64,000 nt of DNA from Tribonema minus (Eukaryota; Sar; Xanthophyceae; Tribonematales; Tribonemataceae), in the NCBI GenBank assembly GCA_017506865.1, contig JAFCMP010000148.1:100377-164376 (forward strand), given 5' to 3'. The notes beneath the pieces were generated by a model. The model was not told the origin of the DNA and ran no database searches. It saw only the letters and a list, made by a program, of their open reading frames with translations. Both the position numbers and the translations under genes were made by a program. This document shows positions 78 to 63,624 of this stretch, in pieces; the stretch's first letter is position 1; the number at the start of each line of letters is the position of its first letter.

Positions 78-3000
78 TTATGTGCTATGCGTGCCCCTCT
101 GAGGTGAGGCAGAGCTCGTGTGATGGCGTCGTCGCTTCACAATGTTAACCTCAGGCGGAAGCACGCCCGACAAGGCCCACGCAGCAGCGGCGCTCACCTC
201 GCGCGCCGCCGCTGCCTCCGCCGCCGCCGCCGCGCAGCGCGCCTCCGCCTCCGCGGCGCGCGCTGCGTGCGCGGCGGCGGCGGCGGAGAGCGCGTCGCTG
301 TGGCCGCGCGCGGCGCGCGCGAGCGCGTCCGCGCGCGCGGCGTCGCGCTGCTGCAGCGCCGCGTCGCGCGCCGCCGCGAGCGCCGCGACCGTCGCCTCGT
401 GTCCCGCGACGAGGGCGGCGAGCGCTGCTGCGTAGGCCTCGCGCAGGCCGGCGGCGCGCGTGTGGTGGCCGCCGGCGATCGCTGCTAGGGTCTCCGCGTG
501 CGCCTTGTCGCGCGCCGCGAGCGCCGCCGCGCCGCGCAGCGCGTACTGCTCGGACATGGCCTCCTGTGGGGGGCCGCAGGGGGGGGGGGGGGGGGGGGGG
601 TCAACGGCACGTGTAGGTCCTGTTGGGCTCAGTCGCAGGTCGATGGGTGATCTTGTCGGCTTACTGCTGGGGTCAGCGTCAGTGACCAATCAAGTAGGGG
701 CAGGGTCAAGCTGTTTCTAAGGGGGATTGCGAGCATGTACAACGGCCTAGCCCTACCCCTTGGCAACTTCAGTGCTCCAGAAGTCAAACGAGCATGGGAA
801 TTACTTGCAGACATCTACAATGGCATGTGCACTCGGCACTGTCTGCAGCGCTCCACATGGCGTACTCTGGCCGTGTCATGACACACATGGCAGAATCCAG
901 GGGGGGGGGGCACATGGTGGAGGACGTAGGGGAGGATCCCGAGATGCCATTTGGCGGCGGCGGCGTTTGAGTGTTGTCGTTGAGACACTTTCAGACTGTC
1001 ACACGACATGTAGATTCCGTACAGCAAGCTTCAAGTTGGATGCCATTCATCTGGGCTTTTTCGCGCCCTGAGCGAGAATTAATAAAAATTACAAAACCGA
1101 CTTCGGAGTACATACCCCAGCACACACACCCTATGTCGAGGCCTGTGCCGCACCTGCGCCTGCACGAGCCCATTGCGTAGCACACACACAGAGTCTACAC
1201 CCACATGACAATATACCCATACACGCCTACATATCCCCCACCCACCCCCCTTGTATCAACCCCCACCTGCGCCTGCGCGAGACCATCGCGCAGCAGCACG
1301 CGCAGCCGCGTCACCGCGCCGCCGCCCGCGCTCGCCTCGCTGGCGCTGCGCACGTGACCGTCTAGCAGCGACGGCGACCCCGCTGCTGAGCCCTGACGCG
1401 GCGTGCCTGCGGACGTGCGCCGGGGGGAGCTGCGAGGGCTCCAGGCGCCTGTGCGGGGGGTGCGCGAGGGGGTGCTGGTGGGGCTGCCGAGGGGGCTGGC
1501 GGGGCCTGCGGCGGTTACGCGGGCGGTTACAGACTGAGCGGTGTGGTTTATTGCATACTTCAAGTGTGTGTTAGAAGTACACGTACTGCGCGGCGTGTGG
1601 CTCCACATGCACGTATATGGACCTCAAACTATACAGGTATGTATCATGGAATGGGTACTTCTGTCGCTCAAGGATGACGCGAGACGTGCCCTCTCCTGGA
1701 ACTACTTACATACTGAAAGTACATCAAGTGCGATGGAACTTCAGAATTGTACGGGATGCACGCTTCTCGGAAGTGCACCACGCGACGGCGCGCACGGCCA
1801 GCGGTGGGTGTGCTCTGAGCCGATGTCCCAGGTGCCGAGCGCTGCCATGGACTTCAATTTTGAAGTAGGTCACCACCAGCACCAATTTCCATGCCAGACA
1901 AGCCGGGGTCCTCGTCCTGCCTTTCACGATGCGTTCAGTGCGCCGCTTGAAGCGCCTTCACCCACACAGCACGATATGCTACTTTGTACATACTTCTACA
2001 TACATGTAAGACCCATCCCGTGGCGCGCCTCGTCAAGAGAGTGGGTTGAGACTAGAGACTCAGGAGAGCGAGTCAAGAGACCCGAGCGAGTGACTCCCAA
2101 CAGTCAAAAGACAAGGCACCGAGTCAGCCGCATCCTCGCATCACTCGGGGTCAGCTACAGCAAATCTGCTCAGGCCCACTTGTGCACACAAACATTGAGC
2201 CGTCCCCAGTCCTTTCTGGTACTTCAGCTTGAAGTGTTGCCTCACGCGCACTCGCGGCCGCCCGCACACGTTATCCCAAAAACCGCACGCGTTCTCGCAA
2301 GACACGTACATCGACCCTTCCCGAAAGCAGGCCACGCGTGACAGCCCAAACACACCGACACCCGCACACAAACAATACATACCTGCCCCGGTCATGCAGT
2401 CCTGCAGCCACGCGGCGAGGTCCTGCTGCAGCGCGGTGACGAGCTCCGCGACCCCCCCGGGGCCCCAGTCCCCCTGCGGCTGGGGCGCGTCCCCCTGCTG
2501 CCGAGCGCTGTCGCGCTGCAGCAGCTCCGCAGCAGCGAGCTCGCGCCGCAGGTCTGCCACCAGGACCTGGTGCTGGGCCTCTGCGAGCTCTGCCGCGCGC
2601 CTGCAATAGTGACGAGTTGGAGCGTCGCCGTGTTATAGTTAGATTGAAGTTGTTGTTGAAGATGCGCCGCAGGTCGGCTACTAGGACGTGGTGCTGGGCC
2701 TCAGCCAGCTCCGCCGTGCGTCTGCGGTGGTATAGGTTAGAGTACAAAAGGAGCGCGTCGCCGCGTTAAGATTGAGTTGAAGCAACTGTTGAAGCTGCCT
2801 CCGTTGGTTCGCCGCGCGCCTGCAATACCAACATCACAGCACGAGTGGAGCGTCGACGCGTTCAGGTGTGGGTGAGGTAGCACTTTGTGTGCCATCAAAG
2901 ATACCTCCGGCGCCGGCTTCAATAATTGAGAGGGATACGTGCGTGCAACAGGAGCGAGCAGCTGCGGCGCCTGAACGGTGATGCGCATGGGCTTGAGCGC

Positions 3001-6000
3001 TGATGCGCAGCAGCAGCTCTACGGCGGCGGTGGCAGACGCTTGGTACGAACGGGCTGCGCGATCGTGACCCCAACTTAGTGGAACCCTGATCTCAGTTAC
3101 AAAGCCTGCCGCCAACCCTTGACCTATTCTTGAGCTCGACATCCCTCTTTGCATCATCCGGCAACGCCTGTCGTGCATGTGCGCTGCTGAGCACTGCACA
3201 AGCAGCGGCGGCAGCAGCGCGCTGACGGCCTTGGACATCTCCCCAGCATCTCTTGCCCACCAGTTTGGGGCCGCCAGCTGCTGGCCCGTGTCGCTGGCCT
3301 GAGCTGACGAGCGCGCGATGCAAGTCACTCTACAGAAACCTGACATTCCACTGCGCAGCACCCATTCTTTGGACTTCTCCGTGGCAAATTCACGCTAACC
3401 CAAAACCTAACCCGAACCCTAACCCTAACCCAAATTTCAACGCTAAGCTGACCCCGCTAAACCTAATCCTCCTATCCCTAATGCTGAGCGTTGGGTACTC
3501 ACGCGGCGGCTGCGGCGCGCTGCGCTGCCTTGGACTTCTCCGCGGCGAGTTCGCGCTGGCATGCCTCCAGCGCCGCGCGCGCGGCGCCGCTCTGCCTCCT
3601 GAGCGCTGCGCTCTCGCTCTTGACGGCGTTTGCCTGCGCGGTGGCAGGCAGTGCGGTGCATCGCGTTGCAATGGTGGCTCTTGCGTCAGCAAGGCTCAGT
3701 CACACAACTAGTATATTTGGCAACAGCCGCGGCGGCGGGCGGCGCATTGCGGCGCGTCACGGCGGCGGCTCTTGCGTCAGCATGGCTCAGTGACGCCATT
3801 GAGTGGTTTCGTGTGAGAGCGAATGCGGCGTAGGCGACGCGGTGACAACGGCTCACGCATCAGCAGCGCTCGGTCACACCTCCAGCTCAATAAATAACAC
3901 CGGAAGAATAGGAAGCCAAAGCTCGCTCCTGTCATGGTCAAGGTACCTAGCTGTGGGGAGTTGAAGTCATGGCGCGGTCGGCGCTTGAACACGCGTTGCC
4001 TGCGACGACCGCGCGCGCAGCAGGATGGTGTTGCTGATGGCAACGTAATGTTCATCGACATGAAAATATGACATTTGAAGTACTGCATTGACCTCGACTG
4101 AGGCAATGAGGTGGACCTGACCTCCGAACAGGACACTTGAAGTATGAGGGACCACTGGCAGTAGTGACGCCCCCCCATTGCCTAACCCTAACCCTAACCC
4201 TAACCCTAACCCTAAGCAGCAGAATGTCGCAAAGGATATGAAGCCCACAAAAACATGTACTCATGCCGCGCCGTTTCACAATGCACAGGATCGCCGCAAC
4301 AAGGCCATAGTACTGGTCAATACAACAATGCTGCTCTGATTTTCACCTCCTGTGCAGACGAGGCACCTTGCAGCTCGACAGTACGGCAACTGTGGCGAGC
4401 ACGTGTGCACCAAGACAGATGACGTCGTTGCATGTTGAAACGTGCTGCCGTTAGTGCACCACCATGCACCTGGGAGGCGCGTGTTGTCACCCACATCATG
4501 GTGCTTTGCCCCCCCCCCCCCCCCCCTCCAGAAAGGCCCGCAGCATTTGAGGCATTGGCAGGAATATCCTTGCAGTACATGGTCGAAACTCCAGAAAATG
4601 CTCACCTGCTGGACGACCTCCTCGCCAGATGAGCCTGCGGCCCCGAGAGCGTGCGCGACGCTCGCCATGGCCTGCCGCAGCGTCGCGCACTCGTGCCTGA
4701 GCGCCAGCAACTCATCCTGAATCAAGGGAGTTCAAGTTCAAGTAGGGGTTAGGGCTAGAATTGGGGCTGGACCAGGGCAAGCGTTGGCTTGGAGTGGTGG
4801 CGCAGTGCTTACATTGATGTTTTGCGCACTCGTGCCTGAGCGTCACAACTCATCCTGAATTGAGAATTGGGTTTGAGGTAAGGGCTATGCCAAAGTTTGC
4901 TTGAGGTCGTGGCACACTTGAAGTTGTATATTGAAGTTGTCATGCACTGTTGTCTGAGTGCCAGCAACTCCTATTGACCCAGGGAGTTCAAGTTCAAGTA
5001 GGGGTTAGGACCAGCATGAGGGCAAGCGCGTCCTGAATCATGAGGTAGGTTCAAGTACTACTAGTAGGGTTAGGGGTAAGGACCACTAGGGTTAGGGCAA
5101 GGTTCGGGTTGAAGGTGTTGCGCACTGCCTAGACTGAACTTTTGGCGCGATGATGGAACATCATGCAACAAGTGCAGTAGAAATCCACTGCACGCAAAAG
5201 CACTGCCTAGACTGAGCTTATGACGCAGTTACGGAATGTCATGCAACAAGCGCTTTGCGCGGTAGGAGTCCGCAGCATGCAAGAGCTCTGCGTTATGCTG
5301 CATGTTCTCTCCGCGGCTGTGGCATGAGTGCCCGCCGGTGCCAAGGGTTACGGGGGGAAGGGTTGTAATCATGATCAGGTTAAGGATCAGGGTTGTGCCA
5401 CTCATGAAGCTGCAATGCCTACTGTACACACCACCAAGGGCTCGTCAACCCGAAGCAGGGGCCGTACTGAAGCTGCAATTCCCACTGTACATGACACCAA
5501 GCGGGAAACCTTCTGCAAACCTCTTCCGAGACACGTGTTCTCGTCATCAGTGCAACAACGGCGCCCGTATACGCCACCAAGAAGCTGATGTTGCTGCATG
5601 ACCCTGCAAAACCCGTGTTCTCACCATCGCGGCGGTGTCCAGTGCCGCAATACCCTCTGCACATGTCACCAAGCAGCAGACCTGCTGCACGACTCCGCAC
5701 AATACGTGTACCCACCATTGGCTAACCCTAACCCTAATGCCGGCGCCTGATGGTGCGGTGGCACCTATCCAAAACAGGTGCAATACCTGCTGTATACGCC
5801 ACCAAGCAGCACATCTGCACCACTGTCCAGGATACAAGCTCTCACCACTGGTATCACGATGGCGGCGGCGGCGGCGGCGCGGCGGACAGTCGCAATACCT
5901 ACTGTATATGCCATCGAACAGCAGACTTTACTGCACAACGCTCCACAAAACAAGCTCTCAATACACAATCGATACAAAGACGGTGCCCAATGACGCAGCG

Positions 6001-8195
6001 GACGGCCGCGATACCTACAGTATACGCCATCACGCAGCACTGCTTCCCGACCCACCCTCAACGAAGTGTTCTCACCATATCCACCAGTGGCACAGCGCCG
6101 CCACTCGATGACGCGGCGGCATCTGTTGAAACAGCCTCAATAGCATGTACGTACTGTATGCGCCATCGAGCAGCAGACTTTGCTGCACAACCCTCCAAGA
6201 TGTATTCCCACCACTGGCACAACGACGGGGCCCGGCGACGCGGCAGCACCTATGCAAAACAGCCGCAATACCTACTGTAGACGCCATCAAGCAGCTGTGC
6301 TGCGCAGTCGACCCCCCAAACGTGTTCTCACCATTGGTACAACGACGGCGCCCGGCGGCGCGGCGGCGGCTGTTGCCGTGCCCTCATCTTGCATCGGCGG
6401 CGGCGGCGGCGCCAGGCGAATGCTTTGCAGCGCCGCAGCGGCCACCTCGCTCGCCTGCAGCGCAGCGCGCAGGCGCTCCACCTGTCGCGCGATGGCAGCG
6501 GCAACATCAAGCATGAAGATGTGATCTTGTCCACCTGATGGCTATGTTCTATGCATAGAGGTATAATCTGTGTGTTTCTTCTTTTATGGTTGAGTCTTGC
6601 TTGGAGCGTAAAGACAATGGAGACTTTACTGCAGTTATACGCAGCGCGCAGGCGCTCCACCTGCCGCGCAAGAGCGTTGACGCCGTCAAGCTGTATGTGA
6701 AGCAGGGGCGATGCTCTCAATGCATCATTGTGTATGTGCACAGATGCAGCGGATGCTCTGCAGCGCGGCAGCGGCCACCTCGCTCGCTTGCAGCGCGGCG
6801 CAAAGGCGCTCCACCTGCCACGCGAGAGCATTGGCGACACCAAGCGCGAATGCAGCATGAGGTCGTGATTTTGTCCACTTCATGTTTGTGGCATATGAGT
6901 CTGATATGACGTGCATGTGCTCATTTTGCTGAATCCCATCTAGGGCGCAATAACGACTTATAGTTCAATTCAGCGAGGTTCTCGCGCAGCGCGCAGGCAC
7001 CTGCGGCGCGAGAGCGTTGACGCCATCAAGTCGAAAGTGAAGCAGGGGCACTGCTCTCAATGTGTCACGGGGGGGCGTGTACGCATCCTAAGACGTGTAT
7101 CCTGGTCCATACATACCTCCTCCCGCAGACCAACAGCAGCCCCCGCCGCGCCGGTGCCTGTCATGAGCTGTATACACACAGCGAGTGCCGTAGGCTGCGA
7201 AGGGGCAGTGTAGCGAGCGTAATGGGACTCATGCACGTATTCTCCCAAGTATACTCCCTTAAGTCTATACATACCTCCTCTCGCAGACCAACTGCCTGGG
7301 CAGCCCCGCTGGCGCCGGCGCCGCTGGCATCGACGGTCTGGACCCTGTTGGCAATGGCCGCGACGGGCACGGCTTTGGCGCGCTGCACGTAGCGCAGCGT
7401 AGAGAGCGTCTCGTGGTAGGACTCGGCCGCGGGGCTGCGGCAGGATGACACAAGACGTTGCCAAAAGAGTTTGCATGAAGTGTTGGAGGGTAAAAAAACG
7501 TAGAGCATCGCTGAGAATAAAGTGTTGTCATATGCATACATAGATATAGATACTGTTCAAACAAAAGTAGTGGTGAGGAGGCGACACAACGTAGCGCAGC
7601 GTCAATAGCGTCCCGTGGTAGGACTCAGCCGCGGGGCTGCAGACGTATGACACAAAGCGTTGCAATATAGTAGCATTGGCATAGAGATCACATCAAACTT
7701 TATAAAGCAGAGAGTATTGCCAGGCATAAGGTGTTGCCTTATCTACAAAAAAAAAAAAACACAGTGTTGCCGGCCTGTCGGGAGGAGGCAACACAACGTA
7801 ACGCAGCGTCGGCAGCGTCCCGTGGTAGGACCCGGCCGGGGGCTGAGGCGGGTTGGCACAGAGCATTGCAGTTAAAATTGGCATGAAGCATCGAAAGTAT
7901 CAAATCTGAAGCATTGCTGAGAATGAAGATTTGCCATATGTATACATGCATGATTCATTGAAGTGAGAGTATCGCCAATGTGTTGTGGAGACACTTGTGC
8001 ACAAGGTGAGCCCGACCGGTTCATGCGCGCGACGATCACACAAGGTGCTCAGTGGAGAAGCGTATGCGCGCCAGCACTTTGGTTGTTGCCAACCGCGGGG
8101 GTCAATTCTCAATCGACTTTCCGCAACCTGAGGAGGCACGCAACAAAACTGGATTGCTGCTTGCTGCCACGTCCTTCATGCACTTCCGCTTGAGG

Positions 8196-8230
<35 letters not shown>

Positions 8231-9125
8231 AAACCCTGTGGAACATGCAAGATATCATACAGCTCTCGTGCTCACGCAGTGCGTGGGGGTCTCGCACCGC
8301 ATATGTGGGCTCAGCTGCGGAAGCAAGTGAGACCAACAGCACCACTGCTCAGCCGCGTACCCGATGGTGGCGAGCATGGTGGTGCGCGATTTGGATACTA
8401 GATATTATGCAGCTCTCGTGCTCGTGCAATGCATGTACGTGTGGGCTCAGCTGACAGCAACTGTGTGCGCACGCGTAGGCGCATACCTGATGGTGGCGAG
8501 CATGGTGGTGCGCGAGTTGCCGCCGAGGCTGTCCCGCAGCAGCCGCGTCAGGACGCTGTTGCGGTACGGCACAAAGTTGAAGTTGCCCGCGTCGCCCGCG
8601 TCCGCGGCGCCCCTCGCGGCCTGACGAGCGTTGACAGCACGCGTGGCATGTGCATGAGACGCAGTCTGCAAAAATTTCAGCCGTGGTTGACTGTGCTGTC
8701 AGGCAACAAGAATATGGAGTGTGCGCGTTGGACCGAATGCAGTTGTGCTCAACGGCGCTGCCACCGCAGAGCGCCTACTTGCAGCAGTTGCAGCAGCCTA
8801 CACAGCATCGCTCTGATGAAGTGTGTAAAGCTGCGCCGCTGCGTGCCTGATGGCCTCGTGCGCACACGCTCCCTCCCCCCCCCAAGGTTTGCCTTCACGA
8901 GCAGGCGCCAATCGTCACCCAACGTTGTCTGCCGCCAGCACCCCCACTTCTAAATGATGCGCACCATACGCGACACTCATGCAACACGAAGCACCTCTCA
9001 GCAGTACCTGATACTCAGCCAGCAAGGTAAGACTAGGCAGCCTACCTTCGCCATGGGTGACAGCGCCACGGGCTCCGACGCGCGCCGCCGCGCCGCCGCG
9101 CCGCCGCCGCCGCCGCCGCCGCTGC

Positions 9126-9166
<41 letters not shown>

Positions 9167-12100
9167 AAGGCCAGCGCCTTGATGACGTCGCCGAGCGTGC
9201 TGAGCGACTTGTTTATTGCTGCCGCCTCGCGCAGTCGCGCGGGAGACGCGGCGTCCCCGGCCCCCACGCGCTCGCTGCCCGCGAGGTCGACCAGGCAGAT
9301 CTTGCTGACGCACGTGGCGAGCGCGCTGCCGTCGGCGGCGGCGGCGGCGCCGATGCTGCGCAGCGGTGATGCGCCGGCGGTAGAGGCGGCGGCGGCGGCG
9401 ACGGTGGTGTGCAGCGAGATGGTGAAGATGGCGTGGGAGCGCGAGGAGACCTCGTTCTGCGCCGTGGAGGCTGGGGGGCAGACAGGGGGGGAGAGTAGGG
9501 GGGAGGGGGGGGGGGGGGTAGGTAAGGGTATGAGGTGACACGCGCATGCATACCCTTCGTTCTGGGCCGTGGAGGCTGCGCGGCAGGTGAGGGGATGGGG
9601 ATGGGGATGGGCGGGATTGGGCGGGGGGGGGTGGGTATGTAAGGGTATGGGGTTACACGCGCATGCATATCCCTCAGTTACCGGCAAGCCATGCTATACG
9701 TGATGATCAGATCGGCAGCAGCGATTACGCAGCGCTGCTGCCAGCTAGACCCTAACTTTAATCCTACCCTAAGTGGCAGCGCTCTCACGCTTGCCCTAAT
9801 TCCAACGTAACCTTGACCCCAGTACTGCCTCACAGCCTCAGATGTACCTTATCCCAGGATGCCAACAATATTAAAGGTAAAGGTGCCCACGGTTCCGTAT
9901 TGCCACGGCCGTTGTCAGGCTCATGATCTGAAAGTCGCAGGTTCAAATCCTGCTCACCCAACCCTGACCCTAACTCAATCTTTGCCCCTTCGTGCGCTCT
10001 GCGGCGCCGAGCTCGTGGCGCGGCCAAATCTCGGCATACATCATAACTGACCCAAACCCTTATCCTAACCCTCCCCTGTCCCTGACCCTCCAATGGCAAC
10101 CCTAAACCTATCCCTAAACCTCTCCCCAACCTCAACTCTAACCTTGCCCTGTCATACGCCACGCCGCGCCGAGCGCCAGGCGCGGCCGTATGTCGGCGTT
10201 GCCGTGACCGACTCAAAACCCAACCTGACCTAACCCCAACCCTGACCCCCATATCAACCCTGACTATAAACCTAAGCTCATACCCTGAATCTTCATCTGA
10301 CCTTAACCCTGACCCTGACCCTAACTCTTACCATTACTCTAACCTGTCGTGCGCCGCGCCGTGCCAAGCTCGAGGCGCGGCCATATGTTGGCGCAGCTGG
10401 TAACGGCAAATGTAAATGCACCCTTAATCGTAATGCCAATCCTATCCCTAGCCCTACTCCAAACCCTGACCTGTCATGCGCCGCGCCGCGCCGAGCTCGA
10501 GGCGCGGCCGAATGTTGGCGTAGCTGGTGACGGCGTGCCTGCGCAGGCCGTCCACAAAGGCGCCCGTCTGCGGGTGCTCGCGCACGCGCAGCGGGTGGCC
10601 CGCGCCTGCCGCAAAGAGGTCGCCAACCTGTGTGCGCGCACGCGGTCAAGGGCACGGTTGGCGTTTAGATATACTAGTGCTAGAGTTTGGGTTTTGAAGT
10701 TGGTCGACCAAACAGGGTTAAAAGAGTTTCAGGTAGGTGAGAAGGATGAGGGTTGTTGGCGCACGCGCAGCGGCTGGCCCGCGCCCGCCGCGAAGAGGTC
10801 GCCGACCTGCGCATGAGGGGGGATCAGGATGAGGGACTGGGGGTGTAATTAGGTCATAGCTAGGTGTTGAAAGCTAGGGTTTAGTTTAGAACGTCAGGAT
10901 TAGGGTGCTCGCGCACGCGCAGCGGGTGCCCCGCGCCCGCCGCAAAGAGGTCGCCGACCTGAGCATCAGGATAAGCATCAGGGCTAGGGTTAAAACTGGG
11001 GGTAGAATGAACTGGGGGGTAGATTGAAGGTAGGGTCAGGTTTTTGGTTGGGGTGTTTGGAAGGATGAGGGTGTTTGCGCACGCGCAGGGGGTCGGTCAC
11101 GCCCGCAGCAGAGAGGTCGCCGACCTGCGCGTGATGGCGCGATCATTTTTTTTATTTTTTATTTAAGATGAAGACCTGAGTCCAACCACAACGGTTGAGA
11201 GAGACTCACCTGCTCATTGTAGATCTCACAGAAGGACACCTCCACGTAGCTGCGCGCGCCGTCCTCCTCCAGCCGCAGCCGCTCAAACAGCTCTGCGCAC
11301 AGCCGCGGTATCAGCCCCTGCCCGTCCGGCCCATCGCTGCTCGCTGGCGCATGCGAAGAACACACCAACCAGGCGGTCAGCTGAGAAGCAGAAATAGGCG
11401 ATGAGCTGTGAAGTAGAGGTCTAAAGAGGTCATACGAGCGACAGTTGAAGTTGAAGTTGCAACTGTAGCCGCTCAAACAGTTTATCGCACAGCCGTGGAA
11501 TCAGCCCCTGTGCGCCGGGCCCATCGTTGCTCGCTGCCACACGCGTAGAACACACCCAACTAGTTGAGATGTCAAGCAGAAGTTAACATGATTTACAATT
11601 GAAGGTGAAGTTGCACAAGTGCAGCGCCGAAGTGCGGCACAGTACGCATCAGCCCCTGCCCGTCGGGCCCATCGTTGCTCGCCGCCACACGCGCCAGACA
11701 CACCAACTGGGCGGTTAGCTGCGAGGCTGAGTTCAATGATCTACATGTGAAGTTGAAGTTACACACGTCCAGTCGCGGTACAGTACATACCCGCCCCTGC
11801 GCGTCTCCGGCACGCACTGCACACCCAGCGCCCTACTGTACAGCATTGCGCCTACCGCGTGCTTCAAGCTGTTTACAAAGTCGGGAAATTCGTCGCACAG
11901 GCGCCGATACGCCAAGTGTCGCACAGGCGCCGCCGGGCCCGCACGCGCATGCACAGCCCTCAGCACGAGTCGCCGCGTCGCGCGCTCACCGCCGCTGCCG
12001 CCGCCGCCGCCCCCGCCGCTGCCGCCGCCCCCCCCGAGCATCGTGTGCGTCTTCCCGGAGCCCGTCTGGCCGTACGCGAGCAGGCTGCAGTTGTAGCCCT

Positions 12101-24621: not shown

Positions 24622-25514
24622 TTATGCGGCGTCGCGGCGCGCGCCGACGTCCGCCCACTGCGTGATGCCGTTGCGCGGCGGCTCTGCGCGCGGCATGACG
24701 GCGCTGCTGCCGAGCGCTGCCTTCGGCACGGCGGACGCGTCGAGCGAGGGGCCGCACGCGTCGGCGGCGGCGGTGATGCCGTTGCTGGCGACGTCCGCGC
24801 GCTCCATGACGCCGTACGAGCCCATGTGCGCCTGCGTGACGGAGGACGCGTCGACGCTCGGGCCCGCGTACTCGGCGCCGCTCGTGATGCCCGTCTTGAC
24901 GATGGCGGGGCGCTGAAGGGGGGGGGGAGGGGGGGGGGGAAGGGGGGGGGGGGGGGATGGGGGGGGGTGAGCACTCGTGACGGTCTGCACTGCGTACAAC
25001 GACGACAACGTGTCATACAGGCATAGGGGGCGGGGGGAGACAGCGGCGCAAGGGGGTACAGTATAGACAGAGTGCTTGTGACGGTTCTGGCCGTGAGCGT
25101 GTGGAATGAGGACTCGCTTGCGCTGCATTGAAGAAGGCGCGGCGGTGCGGCAATCAGCCTGTTGCAGTCAATGTGGGAGGCAGGTAGAAACTCACGACAT
25201 GACACGCTCGCGGTTCTGCCGCCGCGCCGCCGGCGTCATTACTTGAGGGCGGCGAGAGAGAGGGAGGCACAGCATTGACGACCCTCGCTCACAATGATAC
25301 AGCCGCCACGAGAGGCAGCAGCGCTCACCTCCATGACGCCCGCGGTATACTAACAACGACAAACTCTGAACTTTTGTTTTGTGATGCAACACAGCGGCCA
25401 CTGGCGCGCAGCGCGCAGCAGCAGCAGCGCTCTACCAAGCGCTCACGGCGCCCCCTGACACAAAAAATAAACTCTAACGGCTTGCTTGTGATGCAGCACA
25501 GCGGCCACTGGCGC

Positions 25515-25547
<33 letters not shown>

Positions 25548-45400: not shown

Positions 45401-48400
45401 TGCAATCAACATCATAGTTCTGACATGGCTAAATGGCACCCTTGTTGCAGGTGCGCGCGCTGACGCTTGAAGTAGCCTCGCGGCTCCTTGAAGTTCTCGT
45501 GGTGCAGTACCCGGCGCTGCGCGAGGCGGTGCGCGGCGTTGCGCGCCGCGTGCTGGAGGAGGCGCACGGCAGCGCTCTGCAGGCCCTCGACGACCTGCTG
45601 CGCAAGGAGAAGGACCCTTTTACCGTCAACGACTTTTTGGAGCAGCACATCAATAAACTCAGGTAGGACTGGAGCCTGCTATGTATGATACGACCACTTG
45701 TTCAACGGTGAGGTGCTCTACCACTGCAAGAGCGAGCGGCAAGCGCAGCCTGCAAGGGCTGTGCATGATACGACCAATCGGTCAACGGTGAGGTGCTCCA
45801 CCACTGCAAGAGCGAGCGGAAAGCGCAGCCTGCAAGGGCTGTGCATGATACGACCAATCGGTCAACGGTGAGGTGCTCCACCACTGCAAGAGCGAGCGGA
45901 AAGCGTAGCCTGCAAGGCAGGCTTAAACGGGCCATCGGGACCGTGGCGGCGCACAACAATGACGACTTTCCTGGAACAGCACATTATATACAATAAGGCT
46001 ATTATATCTAATAAGCTCAGGTAGAACCGGAACCAATTATGGTGATTGATCGACGAGAGTTGCTCTACCGCTGCGAGAGCGAGCGTACAGCATAGCCTTG
46101 CAGTCCTTGTTTTTTCTACTGCCGCAAGAGCGAGCGTGCAGCATAGCCTTGCGGTCCTTGTTCACCGTGAACGACTCTTGGAGCAGCACATCAATGAGCT
46201 CAGGTAGGATAGGAACCTACTACGTATGGTAATTGATCAATGGTGAGTTGCTCTACCGCTGCAAGAGCAAGTGTGCAGCCCTGCAGGGCAGGCTCGAACC
46301 GTGCGGCTGCCATGGGCAATTTGTATCAGCACACAACCTCAACTCTAGCCCGCAACTTCAAATTGTTTCACAGCGTCAGATTTAAGCCGCCGGCATAAGG
46401 CAGGCGCAGATCCAGCGGCCGCAGTGTACAATGAGTTGGGCCATCCCCCATCTCATCTCAGCCCTGGGTCTGCAACTTCCATTGCGAGCCATCAACTTCA
46501 AGTTCACATTGCCGCCGCCGCGGGCAAGCACTTTACGCCCGCAGCACTGTGCGCAGATGCAACTAGGTGTTTGACTTCGCCTCAAGAGCCAGTCGGCAGG
46601 AGCTGCAGAGCGGGTACTGCAAGGCAGACTAGGCGAAGCTACAACGGAGAATGAGTTTGGGACGCACAACACGTCTAATTCACAACTTCAGTGCCAGTTC
46701 AATACTTAAACGCCAAGTTGCCGCCGCTTGCTGCTGCCGCCGCCCTTCTGCAATGCACCTGCAGTATTGTGCGCAAATGTAAACCAGTGTCAGACTTCAT
46801 CGCGAGCGCCTCTCTGCAGGGGCTGCAGGGGCAGGCGCCGCAAGGCAGGCTCGGATTAGGGTTAGAATCAGTTGAAACCTAAGCCTGAGGCAGCCGCACT
46901 ATAGGGTGTGTGAAAACATCAGTGCATGAGCCCTGATACGGTATATACCCCTTATCAACAGCTTCAACGCCACCCTGCTGCCGCTGCCGCCGCCGCCGCT
47001 GCCGCCGCCGCCACTGCCGCTGCCGCCGCTGTCGCCACCGCCTCGCGCCGCTTCAATACCGTGGTCACCAGGGCTGCACACACTCTCTCACCTCCGCCCT
47101 CGCCCCAAACTCAAGAACTTTCTGCAACTTCAACACCGCCGTGCTGCTTTCGCGCGCGCAGGTACGATCGCTTCGAGACCGCCGTCATCGTGACCACACA
47201 TACTTTTTGACCTCCACCCTTGTGCAAATGCTGATCTGCAACTTCAGCACCACCACGCACACGCCCTCTCACCTTAACCCCTCCCGCCAAACTGTTCCGC
47301 AATATTAACGCCACGGCGCTGCCGCTGCCGCCACCGCCTCACGCCGCTTAAACACCAATGTCAGCAGGGCCGCACACACTCTCTCACCCTCGAACCCTAG
47401 TGCAAACCTTATGCTGGTACGCAATTCCAACACCACGCTGCCGCCAACTTCAACATCGCGCCGACGCCGCCGCGCGCAGGTATGACCGCTTCGAGACCGC
47501 CGTCGCTGCCATCCGCGGCCGCTCATACTTTTTTCACTTCCGCCCTAGGCAATCCTCAAATGCCGTTCTGCAACTTCAACATCACGCTGCCACCAACTTC
47601 AACCGTGCGCCGCCGTCTCGTGCAGGTACGACCGCTTTGAGACCGCCGTCGCCGCGGCCTTCCAGGAGCTCCAGGGCAAGGCCACCGCCGACAAGGCCGG
47701 CTGGGCGGCGGCAAAGGAGAACGTCGGGCAGGCGCTGCGGCGCTGGTACCGCGCAACTCACGGCGTTAACAGCGCGAGCAACGCGGAGGACATGAGCGCG
47801 ATCCTCGAGGCGTACTGGCTGCTCGCGGCGAAGCGCTTCGTCGACAACGCGTGCATGACGCTCGACAAGGTCGTCATGGGCGACGTCGCGCGCCGCATGC
47901 AGGTGGGTGCCGCCGCCGCTGCCGCCGCCGCCGCTGCTGCTGCTGCTGCGCTGCCTCTGCTGCTGCTGCTGCTGCTGCTGCGCGAGGCGTTTGCGCCATG
48001 ATCACTGGTGATTATCCTCTCCCGTTTCGTCAAAAGCTGGGCGGGGGCACGCCAGGGGTGCTGCTCCGCAGCAGGCGCCGCGCATCACGTTTCTGCTTCT
48101 TTAGGAATGCACACGTGTAAGAGCGCGGCTCCTACGACATCGCCCTGCCCCCGCTCCCCCCCCCTTACCTGATGTCCGCTCAGGCTGTGCTGCTTTTGGC
48201 GCGCTGCCCGTTGCGCTCCTTCAGAGACGACATCAGCAATGCTTTCGCAGTGAACATCACATACTGAGCGCTGCTGCTCTGACGGACCGTGAAGTACAGT
48301 GTGCCGCGCGCGTCGCCGACCCTGCACCTCTACGGAGATGAAACAACTGAGTCGCACCAATGCACGTACAACAGCAAGACTGTGTCGTACAAGAGCTGGG

Positions 48401-49262
48401 CAGAGCCATGGCTCCAACTGCGCGAGCAGAGAGCGGCCCTGACCGCGCGCGCAGCGCCACGCAGGAGATGTGCTAACCCTAACCCTGACTCTAACTTCAA
48501 CCCTGAGGACGAGTGCTACCGCTTCGCACGCGTCGTGCCGCGTACGAGGAGTGCTAACCCTTGACTTCAACCCTTTAACCTTAATTTCAACCCTCAGGAG
48601 GAGTGCTATCGGTTCGTCCAGGACGATGAGCGGCTCTCGCGCTTCTTCGAGGAGGACGGCAAGCTGCTTGCGCGCAAGCACGAGCTCACGGAGCGGCGCG
48701 ATAGGCTCAGCAAGGCCAGCGCCGCCATGGCCAACATCCAGGTACGTTGCAATGTGCCGCTGTGATGAGCTCTCACACAAGTAAGTCTTGACCAACTCTC
48801 CCTTGACTAGCGTGCGGCAATGACTTAGTTTATGGAGCGGTGCGACAGGCTCAGCAAGGGCAGCGCCGACACGGCCAACATCCAGGTGCGTCCCTCAGGC
48901 GCTGCTAATCACTTCTTCAAGCACTGACACTCATCAGTGCTTCAAGCGCTGACGCTCCCCCCCCCCCCCATCTGCGCACGCAGGTTCGCAACGGGCGTGC
49001 ACGCCCCGTGCGCGTCACCGTCACCGCGGGACAGCTCGGCCTGGGACTCAGCCTCGCTGAGGACGGCGGCCGCGTAGTGGTCAAGGGCTTCCGCCCAATG
49101 CCAGATGGTCACCGCAACCCGGGGCAGGAGGCGGGGGTGAAGCTCGGGGACGTGCTCGAGCAGGTTGAGGGGCACCGCCTGGGGTCGTTTCAGGAGGCGA
49201 TCGAGCGGCTCAAGCGGAGCCGCGGCACCGTGGTGCTGACGCTGCTGCGCGAGCGGGGGTAG
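36447..49262 (+). CDS. Mx-type dynamin GTPase with a C-terminal PDZ domain, 13 exons, complete
   Basis: A large membrane-remodelling GTPase of 776 residues. Exons: 36447-36626, 36761-36786 (26 bases), 36957-37180, 38642-38781, 39372-39482, 40386-40583, 41584-41709, 42161-42442, 43800-43931, 45451-45662, 47626-47902, 48598-48741 and 48984-49262. Phases agree throughout and the length is divisible by three. GTPase motifs: G1 GDQSSGKS at 65-72 (split between exons 2 and 3), [12 protein letters not shown]3 DLPG at 171-174, G4 TKPD at 240-243. [11 protein letters not shown] before G1 and the PRGSG loop resemble Mx proteins. The middle/stalk region follows, including RGRELPGF and [10 protein letters not shown]. 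The GTPase effector domain spans about 545-684 ([20 protein letters not shown]). Residues about 688-776 form a PDZ fold: GLGL carboxylate loop, then [20 protein letters not shown]. There is no PH or Pro-rich domain. Intron 3 is GC-AG. The first in-frame ATG is used. Confidence 0.95.
37282..38250. repeat. Donor-side exon-edge copies, dynamin intron 3 (GC-AG)
   Basis: Six copies (about 37,282, 37,500, 37,615, 37,808, 37,981, 38,185) of the 3' edge of exon 3, CTCACGGCGCTGATGGAGGC to CTCACGTCAGGCAAGC. All keep GC, not GT, at the donor (GGCAAGC or GGCAGGC). A 46-base direct repeat (37,660-37,755) is nested inside. Confidence 0.95.
38862..39140. repeat. Donor-side exon-edge copies, dynamin intron 4
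   Basis: Three degenerate copies (about 38,864, 38,992, 39,110) of the edge GCAGGGCAGGACCCGCGCAT and ACAGCAGGTGCCACA. Confidence 0.75.
39494..39571. repeat. Degenerate TTAGGG array in dynamin intron 5
   Basis: About ten diverged GGGTTA/GGGATTA units begin 12 bases after the 5' splice site. Shorter arrays of the opposite polarity occur at 43,082-43,135, 43,662-43,712 and 51,596-51,640; others lie at 60,497-60,535, 61,217-61,240 and 62,763-62,825. Confidence 0.85.
40630..41485. repeat. Exon-edge copies from both flanks, dynamin intron 6
   Basis: Four donor-side copies (about 40,635, 40,762, 40,865, 40,965) of exon 6's 3' edge (GAGGCCAAGCGCCTGGAGCA, then GGTGGGTT) are followed by three acceptor-side copies (about 41,140, 41,265, 41,425) of exon 7's 5' edge (GTTGAACTTGCAGGAGTTCT). 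The two sets do not mix: donor copies sit in the first half, acceptor copies in the second. Confidence 0.95.
41885..42110. repeat. Acceptor-side exon-edge copies, dynamin intron 7
   Basis: Two copies (41,880-41,960 and 42,003-42,110) of the 5' edge of exon 8 (GACTCGCAGGCGGAGGTCGA through AGCTCAAGACG). The second extends through CTCAGCGGCTACGGC. Confidence 0.95.
42585..42815. repeat. Donor-side exon-edge copies, dynamin intron 8
   Basis: Three copies (about 42,580, 42,703, 42,772) of the 3' edge of exon 8 (GCCGTTCAGCGACG, then TTTGTGCAGGTGAG). Confidence 0.88.
43380..44195. repeat. Exon-edge copies on both sides of dynamin exon 9
   Basis: Upstream, two acceptor-side copies (about 43,380-43,445 and 43,582-43,632) repeat GATACTGGCGGCG through CGCTGCGCGGGCGCGAGCTG. 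Downstream, two donor-side copies (44,037-44,085 and 44,150-44,190) repeat GCGTGGCGGGAGCCCGCGCG through GAGGTAACCCTAACC. The exon itself is 43,800-43,931. Confidence 0.95.
45050..46270. repeat. Exon-edge copies on both sides of dynamin exon 10, plus an 80-bp tandem repeat
   Basis: Acceptor-side copies begin at about 45,049 and 45,258 (GCAGGTGCGCGCGCTG and CTTGAAGTGGCCTCGCG). The exon is 45,451-45,662. Downstream, a recent 80-bp tandem repeat (45,680-45,920, three units, nearly identical) precedes two donor-side copies (about 45,965-46,030 and 46,166-46,215) that carry GAGCAGCACATCAATGAGCT and CAGGTAGGA. Confidence 0.93.
46965..47515. repeat. Acceptor-side exon-edge copies, dynamin intron 10
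   Basis: Copies of exon 11's 5' edge (GCAGGTACGATCGCTTCGAG, then ACCGCCGTC) lie at 47,156-47,192 and 47,475-47,510. Each is preceded by a repeated intron segment ending GCCGCACACACTCTCTCACC. A fragment lies at about 46,970-47,095. Confidence 0.92.
48500..48890. repeat. Exon-edge copies on both sides of dynamin exon 12
   Basis: An acceptor-side copy (48,503-48,560, GAGGACGAGTGCTACCGCTT) precedes the exon and a donor-side copy (48,830-48,890, GACAGGCTCAGCAAGGGCAG to AACATCCAGGTGCGT) follows it. Confidence 0.9.
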
Positions 49263-50796: not shown

Positions 50797-53785
50797 TCAA
50801 GCGATGGCGCGCGCGCGCCGCGGGTCCATGCCCTCGAGCTGCGCGCACGCGAGCACGCGCTCCGGCAGCTCCGCGTCTGCGCGCCCCTCGAGGACGAAGG
50901 CCACGCGCAGCGACGTGCGCGCGAAGCGCGGCAGCAGGTGGTGCAGCCCCTTGCGCGCGAGGTAGCACCAGTGCCGCACGTTGCAGTCCATCTCCAGGTG
51001 TGGTGCCGCGCTGCCGCCGCTGCCGCCGCTGCTGCCGCCGCTGCCGCCGCTGCTGCCGCCGCTGCCGCCGACGCCGCCGCTGCTGCTGCCGCTGCCGCCG
51101 CCGCTGCCGCCGCTGCCGCCACTGCTGCCGCCGCCAACACTGCCGCCGCTGCTGCCGCCGCCGCCGTTGCCGCCGCCGCTGCCGCCGCTGTTGCCGCCGC
51201 TGTTGCCGCTGCTGCCGCCGCCGCCGCCGCTCACGCGCCGCAGCGTGCCCGACTTTGTCACCAGCACGGGCTTGCCGTTGTACTGGGCGATGAGGCTGGG
51301 AATGCCCGCCTGCATGAGGGGGGTTTCGTGCAGGGGGAAGGGGCGGGTGAGCCGGGAGGTTGGGGGGGGGTCAGAGCCTTCGCGGCCCCATTCACAAGAG
51401 CGTGCGCAATGCCGCTATGACCAGCAGCTGCATGCATGCGTGCATGCGCACATCTGCGATGCACATCAAGGGCGCGGCTCACGCGTGCACACGGCGCAGT
51501 GCGGCAATCGCGCGGCACATGCTGCACTTGGCGTCGTCGCGTGCGATCGCCGCACGTCAGGGACACTTCCTACCCTGTCAGAGACACTTCCTACCCTGAC
51601 CCTAACCCTAACCCTGACCCTCAACCCTAACCCTAACCCTTCAAGCGCGCGCAGGTGCGGAGTTGCGAAGCGCTGAGCGCTGCTGAGCATTGCTGCGCGC
51701 GGCGCGTGCACCTCCTCTACGTTGTTGACCACGCCGATGGCCTTGAAGCGACCGCGCATCTCCGCGTCCGCCTCTGCCGCCGCGCAGAATTCGCACAGCA
51801 GCCGCAGCGCCGGCGACAGATGCGCCGTCTCCGCCGCGCCGCCGCTGCCGCCGCCGCTGCTGCCGTTGTCGCCTGCACGCGCCAGGCCGGGAGCGCGCTT
51901 CATGAGGCTTGCGCGCTGGTGACAGTGTGCATTGCTGATGAGTACAAGGCACAAATTAGCCGCATACACACATACTTCGAAGTATGTAACTTGGGTCCGG
52001 GCTGCCGCAGCACGCGGCAGACGCTGCGCGTGGTATGCGCGGCGCCGCGCACGCACGTGCGGCGCCGCTGCCGCCGCCGCTGACTGCGCCGCACTGGCGG
52101 CGACTGCAGGCGCATCAGGTGTGATCAACAAACAAACTACATTGATGTGCTGGCTGGAAGTCCTTGATTAACTGATGGCCAACGCCGCCACACGCGTGGC
52201 CGGTCTGCTGCACTCACCAGCTCACTCGCTGTTGCACTTGGCGACACACGCGAGCTGCAGGCGCGAGGTCGTAACTGCCAGGGCACACGCTGCCTCGGCC
52301 GACAGAGAAGTAGAAGACGCAGCGCAGCGTCGGACCCTTGCGCTTTGCGACATACCCAACGTGAGCTTCGGCCCATGCGTACCTGCCACGGCACGCGCCC
52401 CCTCCAGACAGCGTCCGCACTACGCACAGCCGCTTACTGTTGCGCGCTGCAACATACTACTTACTGTTGCGCTTTGCAACATACATGTGTGAGCTAATGT
52501 AGGTCATGCATACTTCGAAGTACGCGCGCCGCCTCTGGCGATAGCGCAAAGTCCAAAACGCAGCGCAGCACCGGACTGCTGCGCCTTGTAACACACCTAT
52601 GAGAGCTTTGGTCATACATACCTGCCAATGCACGTGCTGCCTCCGCGGATAGAGCAAAGTAGAAGACGCAGTGCAGCGTTGGTCCGTCGAGCGCTGGCGA
52701 AAACACGGTGGGGTGCTCCAGCGGCAGCTGGATGTTCACCACCAGCAGCGACGGCACCTGTGCACGCCGCGGCGGCAGCAGCGGGGGCGGATGCATTTCA
52801 AAAGCTTGATACCGTACAGCTATTCGTACTATATGAAACAAAGAGCACCTAGCGGCAGCTGTATGTTGACCACCAGCAGCGACAGCACCTGCGCGCGCCG
52901 CCGCGGCGGCGGCAGCGGCAGCGGCGCGTGCAAGGGACGGGCGTGACAGGAGAGCTGCGCCGTGAGCGCGATACGTGCGCCGCCGATGCATCCCCGGTGC
53001 ACACGTACAGGACACGGTGATCATCAACGACGGCGCGCGCTGCTGAGCCTTGCGTATGTAGGGACACAGAGGTGGCAAAACTTCTGATAGCGCTCAGCAA
53101 GTGCCATCAATGGCCCATTGTACATGCATGCCTAACAAGTGCGCGATAGCGTGCAGCCTCCGCACCGGCGGCAGTGACGCGCCGTCCCGTCGAAAACGAC
53201 AGTTCATGTGTGACGCAGCAGGAATGTGGGGGGCCGGGAACACATGCGCATGTGGAATGCGAATGCGTGTCACCGGCAGCTGTCGCGAGGGGCGGACGCA
53301 CACGACCCTTTTGGTGACGGCGACCGCTGCCGACTTCTGTTGAAGTGAACAATAGTTCAAGTGCGACGCACCAGGGGGTGGGGGGACGCGTGCGGCGGCG
53401 CGGGCAGCGCGACGCGGTCCGCAATGCCGTCGACCTTCGCGTGCGCGCTGGTGAACAGGTCGCAGCCGACCATGTCGTACAGCGCCGCCTCCGAGGCCGC
53501 CTTCAGGCCGCGCTTCCTGTAGTTGGGGCCGTGGCGGACCAGAAAGACGCCCGCTCGGAGGGGGGACCAGCTGTGCAGGGGGGGGCGCTGCTGCGCGCCG
53601 TGAGTAGCGGCGGCGGGGTGGCCGTCAACGTCTGCTCTGGGTACCGTCGCTCCCGCCGTGATCGGTGCACCCGCTGCTGCTGCTGCGCTGCCCTCCTCGC
53701 TCCCGCCAGCGGCAGCATCGGCGTCGCGCGCCGCCAGCTGCTCGTCCTCGGGCTCATCTTCCTCTAGCGCAAGCTGCTCTAGGGC
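50797..53785 (-). CDS. EDR2_C (DUF1336) domain protein, C-terminal exons; 5' end unresolved
   Basis: Four minus-strand exons with agreeing phases (53785-53372, 52757-52622, 51872-51712, 51309-50797) encode 407 residues ending in TGA. Together they make a full EDR2 C-terminal domain. In order: an acidic linker (ALEQLALEEDEPEDEQ); LHSWSPLRAGVFLVRHGPNY with ALYDMVGCDLFTSAHAKVDG; VPSLLVVNIQLPLEHP with DGPTLHCVFYF; RLLCEFCAAAEADAEMRGRF; IPSLIAQYNGKPVLVTKSG; then HLEMDCNVRHWCYLARKG and FVLEGRADAELPERVL. In plants this domain follows PH and START modules in EDR2, a negative regulator of defence that binds phosphoinositide; that role is not shown here. A Gly/Ser insertion of roughly 70 residues (about 51,015-51,238) interrupts the domain between the VLVTKSG and HLEMD strands. 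Exon-edge copies flank the second exon on both sides. Possible earlier exons lie at 54,220-54,309 and 54,386-54,581. Confidence 0.85.
52255..52920. repeat. Exon-edge copies on both sides of the second EDR2_C exon
   Basis: For the minus-strand exon 52757-52622, donor-side copies occur at about 52,500-52,580, 52,375-52,425 and 52,275-52,350 (GTAGAAGACGCAGCGCAGCG). An acceptor-side copy occurs at 52,850-52,920 (GCGGCAGCTGTATGTTGACC through GCACCTG). Confidence 0.9.
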
Positions 53786-54581: not shown

Positions 54582-54639
54582 CTGAAAAAAAACACTTCTC
54601 GCAGAGGCTGATCCGTGATCCGTGGCAAGTAAAGGGAAC

Positions 54640-56079: not shown

Positions 56080-56300
56080 AAGCTTCGTCAGACTGACTGG
56101 CAGATCAGGCTTCGTCCACTATCTAAGCCGTGGCAGGCGGAACTTCCTAGGCTTCGTCAGGTCGACGTTTGTTGCAGAAGGCTTCGGTCAACAGCGCGCA
56201 TGGCAACAAGGCTTCGTCAGGATAATACAGCATGGCAGGCTTCGTCCGGCTTCGTCAGGACAACAGCGCAGCAGAAGAAGGCTTCGTCCAGCCTAGGACC
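56080..56300. repeat. Minisatellite of GGCTTCGTC(A/C)
   Basis: At least nine copies of AGGCTTCGTCAG or CTTCGTCC, irregularly spaced by 15-45 bases. Confidence 0.75.
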
Positions 56301-62100: not shown

Positions 62101-63624
62101 TCACGCCACCTCTGCCGCCCCCCCCCCCCCCCCCCCCCCCGCGCTGCACGCGCGCGCCGCAGTTGCGCGACGCGCAAGCGCCGCTGCGATGGCGACGGCA
62201 CCAACGCCTGCAGCCTGTGCGCGCGGCGCCGCCGGCCGTGCGTCTACAGCAAGGTGAGTGCGGCGCGCCCACGGTCGCCGCGAGTGTGTTTTTTCGCAGG
62301 CGCGCACTCACAATCGGTGACATTGCTCAATAGGGCGCACCATCCTGTGCGCGCCCCGCCGTCGCCGCCCGTGCGTCTACAGCAAGGTGAGCGCGGCGTG
62401 CCCGCAGTCGCCGCGGGCGCCTCAGGGTACGTGTACTGCCTCGTTTGGTGCACTCCAAACGCTTTTCCAGCAGTGCAGGTCATTTCCTGCGCTTGTGAGC
62501 ACTTTTGTAGTCCAACTTCTCGTGCTATAGCTCACGTCAGTCCCGTCGGCGCGTTGTGACGTGGGCCTCCACATTATGCAGTGTGACGCTGTACTTCGAG
62601 GCGTGCACTCACAATCGGTGGCATTGCTCAGTAGGGCGCACTACCATGTGCGCGCAGCGCCGCCGCTCGTGCGTCTACAGCAAGGTGAGAGCGCCGCGAG
62701 TGTGGTTGTTTGGAGGCGCGCACTCACAATCAGCGGCATTGCTCAGTCAGGCGTGCGGCATGATGAGGGTCAGAGTTAGGATGAGGGCTGCTGGGGCTAC
62801 GGTCAGGGTAGGGTTTAGGGTTAAGTATGTCGTGAATCAGTCCAAACGCCGCAGTCATTTCGGCTTTGCTCCCGATGGCTGACGTCGCGTATGCTCGGTG
62901 TCGATGCGCCCGCCAGTCGCGCAGCTATGCCCCCCCGCTGCGCGCGCACGGCGCAAGGGGAGACGGTGCACAAACGTCATCCACTGCCGCCAGCCGCGGA
63001 CCTGCTGCTGAGCATCAGCGTGCTGTGCGCCAACGCGCGCAACTCGCGAAGATGGCTACAGTAACGGCTATGCCCCCCTTGTCAGTCTGCAACTGCGCAC
63101 TACACTACCAGTCGCTCCGCAGCGCAACACGCCGCGAAACGTACGCAGTCGCGCCATCATCAGGGCGCCGTGCAAGCTCGCCTCGCCCGCCATTCGACCA
63201 CGCCAGCCGCGCCCGCCGCGCATCCTAACAATGCTCACCCCCCCTCCTCCCTCACGCTGCGCAGAGACCGTATGCAAAAACGGCTGCGGCGGCGGCGGCG
63301 GCGGCGGCAGCTGCTGCAGCGCCACTGTCCGCAGCAAGTTCAACAGTGACCTCCGCCGCATCTTCAACAACATCGTCGCCGCCCATGACGCCGCCGGCGG
63401 GCTCGCCGCATTCGCCGCCGCCTGAGGAGCCGCCGCAGCAGCAGCAGCAGCCGCGGCGGCAGCTGCGGCGGCGGCGCGCGAGCGGCGGCGCAACGGCGGC
63501 GGAGGCGCCGGCGGCAGCGGCGCAGATCGTGGCGCGCCTGCCGCGCGGCCACATCTCCCGCTCCCCCGCGACAGGTTCGTCACTGTGCGGCTGCCTGCAG
63601 CAGCAGGAACGCAGTACACGCTGA
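59156..63624 (+). CDS. Zn2Cys6 zinc-cluster (fungal GAL4-type) protein, 5' part
   Basis: A putative DNA-binding transcription regulator. Exons 59156-59259, 62163-62253 and 63265 onward join in agreeing phases. The first exon ends in the first cysteine region (SRTACD) and the second supplies the rest, giving CDSCATRKRRC, then DGDGTNACSLCARRRRPC. This fits C-x2-C-x6-C-x7-C-x2-C-x6-C, the binuclear zinc cluster, followed by VYSKRPYAKT. Downstream is a poly-Ala, Ser/Thr/Pro-rich and poly-Gln stretch. The frame reaches a stop at 63,622-63,624. A weak donor (GTTCGT) after 63,574 could instead continue the gene beyond the window, which would fit the usual size of such regulators. The ATG at 59,156 is the nearest plausible start. 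Introns 1 (2.9 kb) and 2 (1.0 kb) are rich in exon-edge copies. The split cluster was joined by eye, and the middle intron is long, so transcript support would be decisive. Confidence 0.8.
61280..62700. repeat. Exon-edge copies on both sides of the Zn2Cys6 exon
   Basis: Upstream of exon 62,163-62,253, about six units of 110-180 bp repeat CATGCCTCACGCCGCC, GCGCTGCACGCGCG..CGCAG and GTGCGCCTGAATCACCAC. Downstream, two donor-side copies (62,348-62,400 and 62,645-62,690) repeat CCGTGCGTCTACAGCAAGGT plus GAG. Decoy splice sites remain intact in most. Confidence 0.88.

Follow-up and report, generated by a model that had tools for sequence, protein, structure and literature searches.

The closest described counterparts of the structures reported here are the 'mirages' of amphioxus introns. 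These were identified in Adh3 and in the globin genes BflGb6 and BflGb9 (PMC3087553), and PGBD5 and troponin C were added in a further report (PMC3902484). As the excerpts of both reports have it, the repeat units measure 10-72, 60, 108 or 150-160 bp, mRNA splicing is normal, the repeats turn over, and haplotype differences and reverse transcription polymerase chain reaction are on record (PMC3087553; PMC3902484). Another related system is intron gain by tandem genomic duplication (the Rogers model), for which the excerpted account gives an RdRp case from potato (PMC4974935). Here we describe tandem copies of exon edges, together with their splice sites, in introns of a 64,000-nucleotide (nt) stretch of the Tribonema minus genome (contig JAFCMP010000148.1, positions 100,377 to 164,376; hereafter the window) and of further loci in the same assembly. 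T. minus is a xanthophyte alga, within the PX clade of the stramenopiles.

A preliminary description of the window, made from its letters, cited the tandem-duplication model of intron gain and knew of no genome in which such polarity is systematic. The structure is not unknown in kind, for the amphioxus mirages are the same and are known from several genes. The T. minus arrays differ from them in scale, two-sidedness, divergence and lineage. Unlike the mirages, which the excerpts place in a handful of genes, the T. minus arrays occupy about a third of the 84 introns sampled, often at both ends and mostly as diverged copies, and they do so in a stramenopile; mirages are not peculiar to chordates. 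Amphioxus haplotypes, in the same excerpts, differ in copy number, whereas in T. minus, represented by one assembly, it is paralogues that differ. Among the literature matches listed, seen as titles and the starts of abstracts, there was no report of exon-edge arrays in Tribonema or xanthophytes; one may exist elsewhere.

The assembly comprises 158 Mb in 554 contigs, and G+C is 60% in the window. Our core sample, which was not random, consists of 84 introns from 13 genes with protein-backed exons. A purpose-written spliced alignment program set the exon limits from 12 annotated T. minus proteins, with an Ectocarpus protein serving for an EHD gene. Of the 13 genes, eight belong to the dynamin family and were found by one homology search (one of them lies in the window), and the EHD gene came from the same search. 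P0136, an EDR2-like gene, is in the window, P0150 is a neighbor gene, and only P0145 and P0157 are at arbitrary places. Before counting, we left out last exons that fell at locus ends (two of P0145 and one each of P0157 and P0154); P0135, P0134, P0141, P0142 and P0150 are cut by locus ends and were counted with the exons present there. P0148 (intronless), L020 (distant homologue only) and the window genes with hand-set exons stand outside the 84. Within each intron we searched for 40 bases of the facing exon edges, and a score of at least 32 was taken as a strong copy. We call a copy of the 3' edge of the exon upstream a donor copy, and one of the 5' edge of the exon downstream an acceptor copy.

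We identified strong copies of a facing exon edge in 28 of the 84 introns. Nine of the 13 genes have at least one, and four have none. As in the excerpted descriptions of mirages, the tandem copies span the intron/exon boundary, and both 5' and 3' boundaries are duplicated: the upstream exon's 3' edge is copied in 24 introns and the downstream exon's 5' edge in 14, giving 48 donor-side and 20 acceptor-side copies. The controls were nearly empty. The wrong-side (far) edges of the same exons gave no match at threshold (0/63 and 0/63, or 0/126), nor did mid-exon segments (0/45 and 0/43, or 0/88), one of which scored, below threshold, above its 200 shuffles. Edges compared with introns of other genes gave 1 match in 1680. 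Donor copies lie in the first half of the intron in 46 of 48 cases and acceptor copies in the second half in 19 of 20, and in all ten two-sided introns every donor copy precedes the acceptor copies. Thus, the strict polarity noted in the preliminary description is confirmed. It had proposed alignment of introns with their flanking exons against shuffled introns; run on the 84 introns, this comparison left the polarity in place, with shuffled introns reaching threshold for the facing edges in 3 of 33,600 cases. The copies also carry splice signals, again like mirages as excerpted. Where the alignment reaches the junction, GT is intact in 26 of 36 donor copies and AG in 16 of 17 acceptor copies; it stops short of the junction in 12 donor and 3 acceptor copies.

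A dynamin gene of the window has copies in most of its introns. This Mx-like gene has 13 exons on the plus strand (36447..49259; hand model and annotated protein P0001), and the best match of its protein is Mx2, a Mx-like dynamin-related GTPase of T. minus. The hand-built model has 12 exons and yields one open protein throughout; the annotated protein of 771 residues agrees with it at 10 of 11 introns and has an additional 13th (last) exon. Donor copies occur in 7 of its 12 introns, acceptor copies in 5 and either in 8, with 27 copies altogether. In intron 6, exon 6 is followed by four donor-side copies of ..AAGCGCCTGGAGCAG/GTGGGT (the slash marks the junction; 40532..41026), the fourth with AT for GT, and exon 7 is preceded by acceptor-side copies of ..TTGCAG/GAGTTCTTCAAGGCGCACC (41083..41614), of which two are above threshold and a diverged third is seen in the alignment. 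Four donor copies followed by three acceptor copies, unmixed, is what had first been reported for this intron. Two-sided arrays were also identified in intron 8 (three donor-side copies, 42406..42849; two acceptor-side copies, 43087..43842), intron 9 (two donor-side, 43895..44239; two acceptor-side, 45022..45534) and intron 10 (a donor-side array with one copy above threshold, 45619..46294; an acceptor-side array with two, 46966..47655). Intron 7 has two acceptor-side copies (41842..42237), introns 4 and 12 have single donor-side copies (38740..38949 and 48690..48891), and intron 11 has a repeat pair that extends 19 nt into the downstream exon and is under the edge-copy threshold (48444..48616). 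Five intronic copies of the 3' edge of exon 3 with its donor are present in intron 3 (37119..38304). This intron (37170-38655) may be read as GC-AG (exon end TCAG/GCAAGC) or, as annotated, as GT-AG, the two readings being a few bases apart at each end; under GC-AG, the motif GCAAG occurs at either end.

Exon-edge arrays are real and widespread in the genome as sampled, and the majority of the sampled introns are without them. By gene, copies are present in 8 of 12 introns of the window dynamin gene, 1 of 6 of the EDR2-like gene and 19 of 66 at loci outside the window, so that the earlier statement that most introns contain copies is correct for the dynamin gene and too strong in general. Local repeats are present in five of six arbitrary 10-kb loci. 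Comparison of the window with itself gave 124 same-strand repeat pairs, many at exon edges; in 118 pairs the two members are no more than 1,500 bases apart. Scored against coarse coding blocks, 114 repeat pairs were concordant and 5 discordant, a count that excludes 182 pairs lying outside all blocks and 5 that fell on two. The concordant and discordant numbers are 25 and 3 for annotated window genes, 15 and 0 for other window genes, 20 and 1 for L009-L020, 18 and 1 for the arbitrary loci L021-L026, and 36 and 0 for the kinesin loci L027-L036. In the three window discordances the decoy itself was scored as coding. Spacing between copies is about 110-190 nt. Tandem arrays are hard to assemble, and an assembly artefact might be suspected. 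The near repeat pairs of the window range from 65 to 100% identity and are mostly below 95%, so the copies differ from one another; exon edges and strand are respected in loci from many contigs, and the copies resemble their own exon more than that of the paralogue. We therefore regard an artefact as extremely unlikely.

The copies are local. A 69-base edge of a KH-domain gene in the window has seven matches in the genome: five fall in the window gene itself and two in the paralogue, which lies on C57. For a dynamin edge the matches number three, none of them outside its own gene. This bears on dispersed elements carrying splice sites as the source. Introners are dispersed families that represent recent, repeated intron change across one algal genome, and they likewise bring splice sites into introns. 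The recurrence of intron change across one algal genome is a point in common; however, the T. minus copies tested are private to each junction, as shown by the two edges, which across 158 Mb have no match beyond their own locus and a paralogue, and by the single cross-gene match in 1680 comparisons. An origin from dispersed elements is barely conceivable.

We consider it probable that the structures are 'mirage'-type arrays, that is, short tandem duplications in introns, many of them spanning exon-intron junctions. Such duplications would arise often in T. minus introns. A unit lying across a 5' splice site would leave extra exon tails with their donor downstream, inside the intron, and a unit across a 3' splice site would leave extra acceptors with exon heads upstream, also inside the intron. 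The spliceosome would keep the outermost site; no other choice would leave the protein intact in almost every case. Arrays may then expand, shrink and partly homogenize via slippage or unequal exchange. With selection acting on the exon, similarity to the copies would decay more slowly there than in the intron parts, so that exon edges would stand out, and introns would lengthen inward from both ends. The strict polarity and the order of donors and then acceptors are expected, because junction-spanning tandem duplication with outermost splicing allows no other placement. Since this geometry suffices, polarity is not evidence of a directed process. We rejected it as such, and the genome-wide process first proposed is upheld for its wide extent in the sample but not for polarity as the sign of a junction-directed mechanism.

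Further observations bear on the tandem-duplication explanation. The exon-side breakpoint is constant within some arrays (57, 57 and 57 nt in three of the four copies in P0150 intron 4; 49, 49 and 49 nt in P0145 intron 2; 50 and 50 nt in P0130 intron 2), which fits a single founding duplication followed by expansion. A copy was detected for 38 of 168 exon edges and 17 of 132 intron edges, about a twofold difference between tests that differ in lengths and thresholds, and this fits slower decay on the constrained side. Other points weigh on the opposite side. The exon breakpoint varies in several other arrays (in dynamin intron 6 it lies at 23, 52, 48 and 31). Exon cores with 92-98% identity adjoin unalignable intron sequence in some arrays (the KH array, and L013 intron 2, where the intron reach is 2 nt); ageing predicts some intron similarity, and therefore turnover, conversion or selection must be added, with conversion or insertion perhaps needed for the arrays with unalignable spacers. 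Decoy-to-decoy identity is 0.83 in the exon part and 0.64 in the intron part (31 pairs), a comparison biased by the choice of copies by exon similarity. Finally, exon reach peaks near 50 nt, and tandem duplication alone predicts no peak. With copies picked by the intron edge instead, the chosen intron part has identity 0.87 and the exon side 0.77 (17 cases). Because the copies had been chosen by exon similarity, we did not accept the likeness of decoy cores as proof that selection acts; a trend in which copies nearest the exon are youngest was also rejected (nearest versus farthest copy 13 versus 6, P 0.29).

Paralogous genes provide an indication of age. At sites where paralogous exons differ (L016/L017 and L012/L013), decoys match their own exon 71 times, the paralogue's 12 times and neither 7 times, and 16 of 19 decoys favor their own exon over the paralogue's (3 of 19); both decoys of P0141 intron 8 match the paralogue's exon. 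These matches may be explained by recent origin or by homogenization, either of which fits; the decoys are probably mostly younger than the gene duplications or homogenized since. Of the nine intron pairs compared between paralogues, a clear common stretch is present in three and a marginal one in two. Intron 2 of L013 (P0130) has 1,265 bases and copies at both ends, whereas the same intron of L012 (P0132) has 525 bases and none. In the KH-domain pair the exons are 86-90% identical, and intron 3 measures 1,381 bases with a donor copy in the window gene but 676 bases without one in the paralogue. The first ~150 bases of intron 4 of the KH paralogue match the stretch after the second decoy of the window gene. 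As intron positions are common to paralogues with and without arrays in the two pairs compared, the introns are older than the arrays there. In the paralogue pairs compared, arrays appear to come and go.

The shared positions count against reading each array as a newborn intron, produced by tandem duplication of an AGGT-containing piece of exon. The T. minus duplications include splice signals, as in Rogers-type gain in its excerpted description, where the new intron lies inside an exon; in T. minus, existing introns grow and paralogues share positions. Intron birth would agree with two cases, the GC-AG reading of dynamin intron 3 with GCAAG at both ends and intron 3 of the EDR2-like gene, a 113-nt intron wholly within a duplicated stretch that reaches both exons (52720..52924, minus strand). 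In the two paralogue pairs the introns predate the arrays, and as a general account intron birth seems very improbable. The tandem-duplication arrays would be a concrete route for intron lengthening. Introns with copies have a median length of 843 nt, against 530.5 nt for those without (P = 0.005), which supports the earlier suggestion that the process lengthens introns.

The decoys are strong by score, in support of the further suggestion that introns are littered with decoy splice sites. With a matrix built from the 84 real donors, decoy donors have a mean of 5.9 bits, compared with 8.7 for real donors and -1.0 for all intronic GT, and 15 of 36 decoy donors equal or exceed the real partner in score. 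In the annotated proteins it is the outer splice sites that are used. The transcript-derived protein P0149 matches four EHD exons at 162/165, 109/109, 50/50 and 47/47 residues, and these include the edges of a decoy-bearing intron. Joining an intact decoy to its normal partner would result in a stop or frameshift in 40 of 42 cases. We infer that the spliceosome rejects the decoys. The arrays constitute a natural experiment on splice-site choice, with near-exact donor and acceptor copies that have ~20-110 nt of exon context, lie tens to hundreds of nt off and are apparently unused. The decoys might instead be functional, serving nested or alternative splicing via inner pairs or supplying extra U1/U2 sites that protect long introns, with selection keeping the exon-like cores. 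Their donor scores, the nested order in two-sided introns and the cores that stay similar in some arrays while spacers diverge would agree with such a role. The stops and frameshifts count against it, as do the presence of decoys in only a third of introns, the differences between paralogues in having them, and spacings that are a multiple of three in only 20 of 68 cases. We consider a function of this kind improbable.

A different alternative concerns how the duplications arise. A splice-junction-directed process might make them, with a typical exon reach of ~50 nt, for example through staggered nicks at RNA-DNA hybrids or at polymerase paused near splice sites, followed by fill-in and end joining. 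In plants, paired single-strand breaks are known to give rise to short head-to-tail tandem duplications; they are offered here as mechanism only, and nicks in T. minus are conjecture. Within gene spans, 41 of 48 arrays lie across a junction versus 17.4 expected under uniform placement, with exon constraint aiding detection. Selection should, if anything, remove junction-spanning copies, and therefore an excess would have to be mutational. With exons hidden and a slightly lower score limit, we identified 31 arrays in 59 kb of intron, in 24 of the 84 introns; 18 of the 31 touch an intron end versus 9.2-11.1 expected (P 0.0004-0.006). Exon reach has a median of 50.5 nt (interquartile range 39.5-58.5; 40 arrays, one two-edge array omitted), differs from uniform (Kolmogorov-Smirnov P 1.5e-5) and exceeds 0.6 of the unit in only 3 of 40 arrays. 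Array density is 8.0 per 10 kb in annotated introns and 2.3 in intergenic DNA (~3.5-fold), where exon edges aid detection in introns and intergenic DNA lies over 400 bases away from every coding block; by position, 6 of the 18 arrays in the latter are in the kinesin and Zn genes. No array was identified wholly within coding DNA.

The evidence for junction targeting is not uniform. In a second set of 32 putative introns, independent of the first and coarsely delimited, 7 of 16 arrays touch intron ends versus 5.6 expected (P 0.30). Of the intron-edge segments, 17 of 132 have a duplicate (22 low-complexity intron ends omitted), and 12 of these 17 continue into the exon, which by a rough, uncomputed reckoning is about the expectation for uniform breakpoints. 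Short exon reach is hard to detect, and this may help create the peak at ~50 nt. Telomere-like repeats might mark breaks, but they show no concentration at junctions, with 2 of 23 lying 60 nt or less away and 3.9 expected. We rejected interstitial telomeric repeats as a junction break mark, their rate being similar across all loci (0.39 versus 0.30 per kb). On balance, a junction-directed origin of the duplications is possible but rather unlikely. The fuller proposal is slightly more doubtful still. It would make splice junctions hot spots of tandem duplication through a transcription- or splicing-coupled lesion near exon ends, with ~50 nt of exon reach, introns growing inward from both ends and a spliceosome that has to pass over strong decoys in a large fraction of introns. 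If junction targeting were true, splicing or transcription would be tied to a mutational process.

The preliminary count of over fifty copies in seven multi-exon genes of the window, on both strands, is matched by our total of about 54. The EDR2-like gene (P0136) has one copy in its six introns, in the donor-side array of intron 4 (52272..52685, minus strand). Five further multi-exon window genes with hand-set exons have 28 copies of the facing edges, two of which are (GGC)n low-complexity matches; these five genes have no wrong-edge and no mid-exon copies. The single-exon eIF3k-like gene of the window has no copies.

In the KH-domain gene (15490-19157, plus strand) one donor-side copy follows the exon ending near 15898 (15834..16032), and four, which consist of a ~60-base exon tail and GTGAGT, follow the exon ending at 17503 (..GTCGCCAGC/GTGAGT; 17439..18351). 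The paralogue of this gene, P0131 (L040, on C57), has one decoy in the corresponding intron versus four. The kinesin gene, on the minus strand, has arrays at many exons. Single acceptor-side copies are associated with exons 2399-2600 (2543..2725), 4594-4719 (4685..4860) and 7105-7137 (7105..7295), and two each with exons 6344-6484 (6416..6845), 7308-7439 (7387..7870) and 11207-11343 (11277..11805). Single donor-side copies are associated with exons 3502-3639 (3205..3242) and 8489-8620 (8363..8519). Exon 10475-10630 has three donor-side copies on its left (9961..10534) and three acceptor-side copies on its right (10475..11127). Also on the minus strand are a donor-side copy in a calponin-like gene (25315..25569) and a donor-side array at exon 35140-35270 of an unnamed gene (34798..35189). 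Two donor-side copies follow the exon ending near 62253 of a Zn2Cys6-like gene on the plus strand (62211..62753).

The introns have other unusual sequence features. The heptamers ACTTCAA and TTGAAGT are over-represented in introns of the 13 annotated genes (43 versus 3.3 and 31 versus 2.4 in shuffled sequence), and are found, for example, in the window at 17530-18700; the 22 kb of coding DNA has 4 and 2. On the sense strand of introns, CCCCCCC occurs 206 times and GGGGGGG 30 times (overlapping counts). Long C runs, seen by eye, precede some acceptors (e.g., 40330-40385 in the window) and are perhaps polypyrimidine tracts. Interstitial telomere-like repeats (CCCTAA/TTAGGG) were identified in 11 of the 84 introns, with 23 nine-mers in 59 kb of intron versus 0.2 in shuffled sequence and none in 22 kb of coding DNA; in the window they are present at 39500-39568, 43087-43132 and 51593-51640.

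Repeats of other kinds were also identified. In L015, positions 1-2936 are occupied by a tandem array off any coding block; its units recur every ~420 bases and are 92-96% identical. At 28815-30679 of the window, two direct repeats of 130-134 nt (89-92% identity, ~1,570 apart) enclose a hairpin-like inverted repeat (29914-30233, 93% complementary), an arrangement that resembles a mobile or foldback element.

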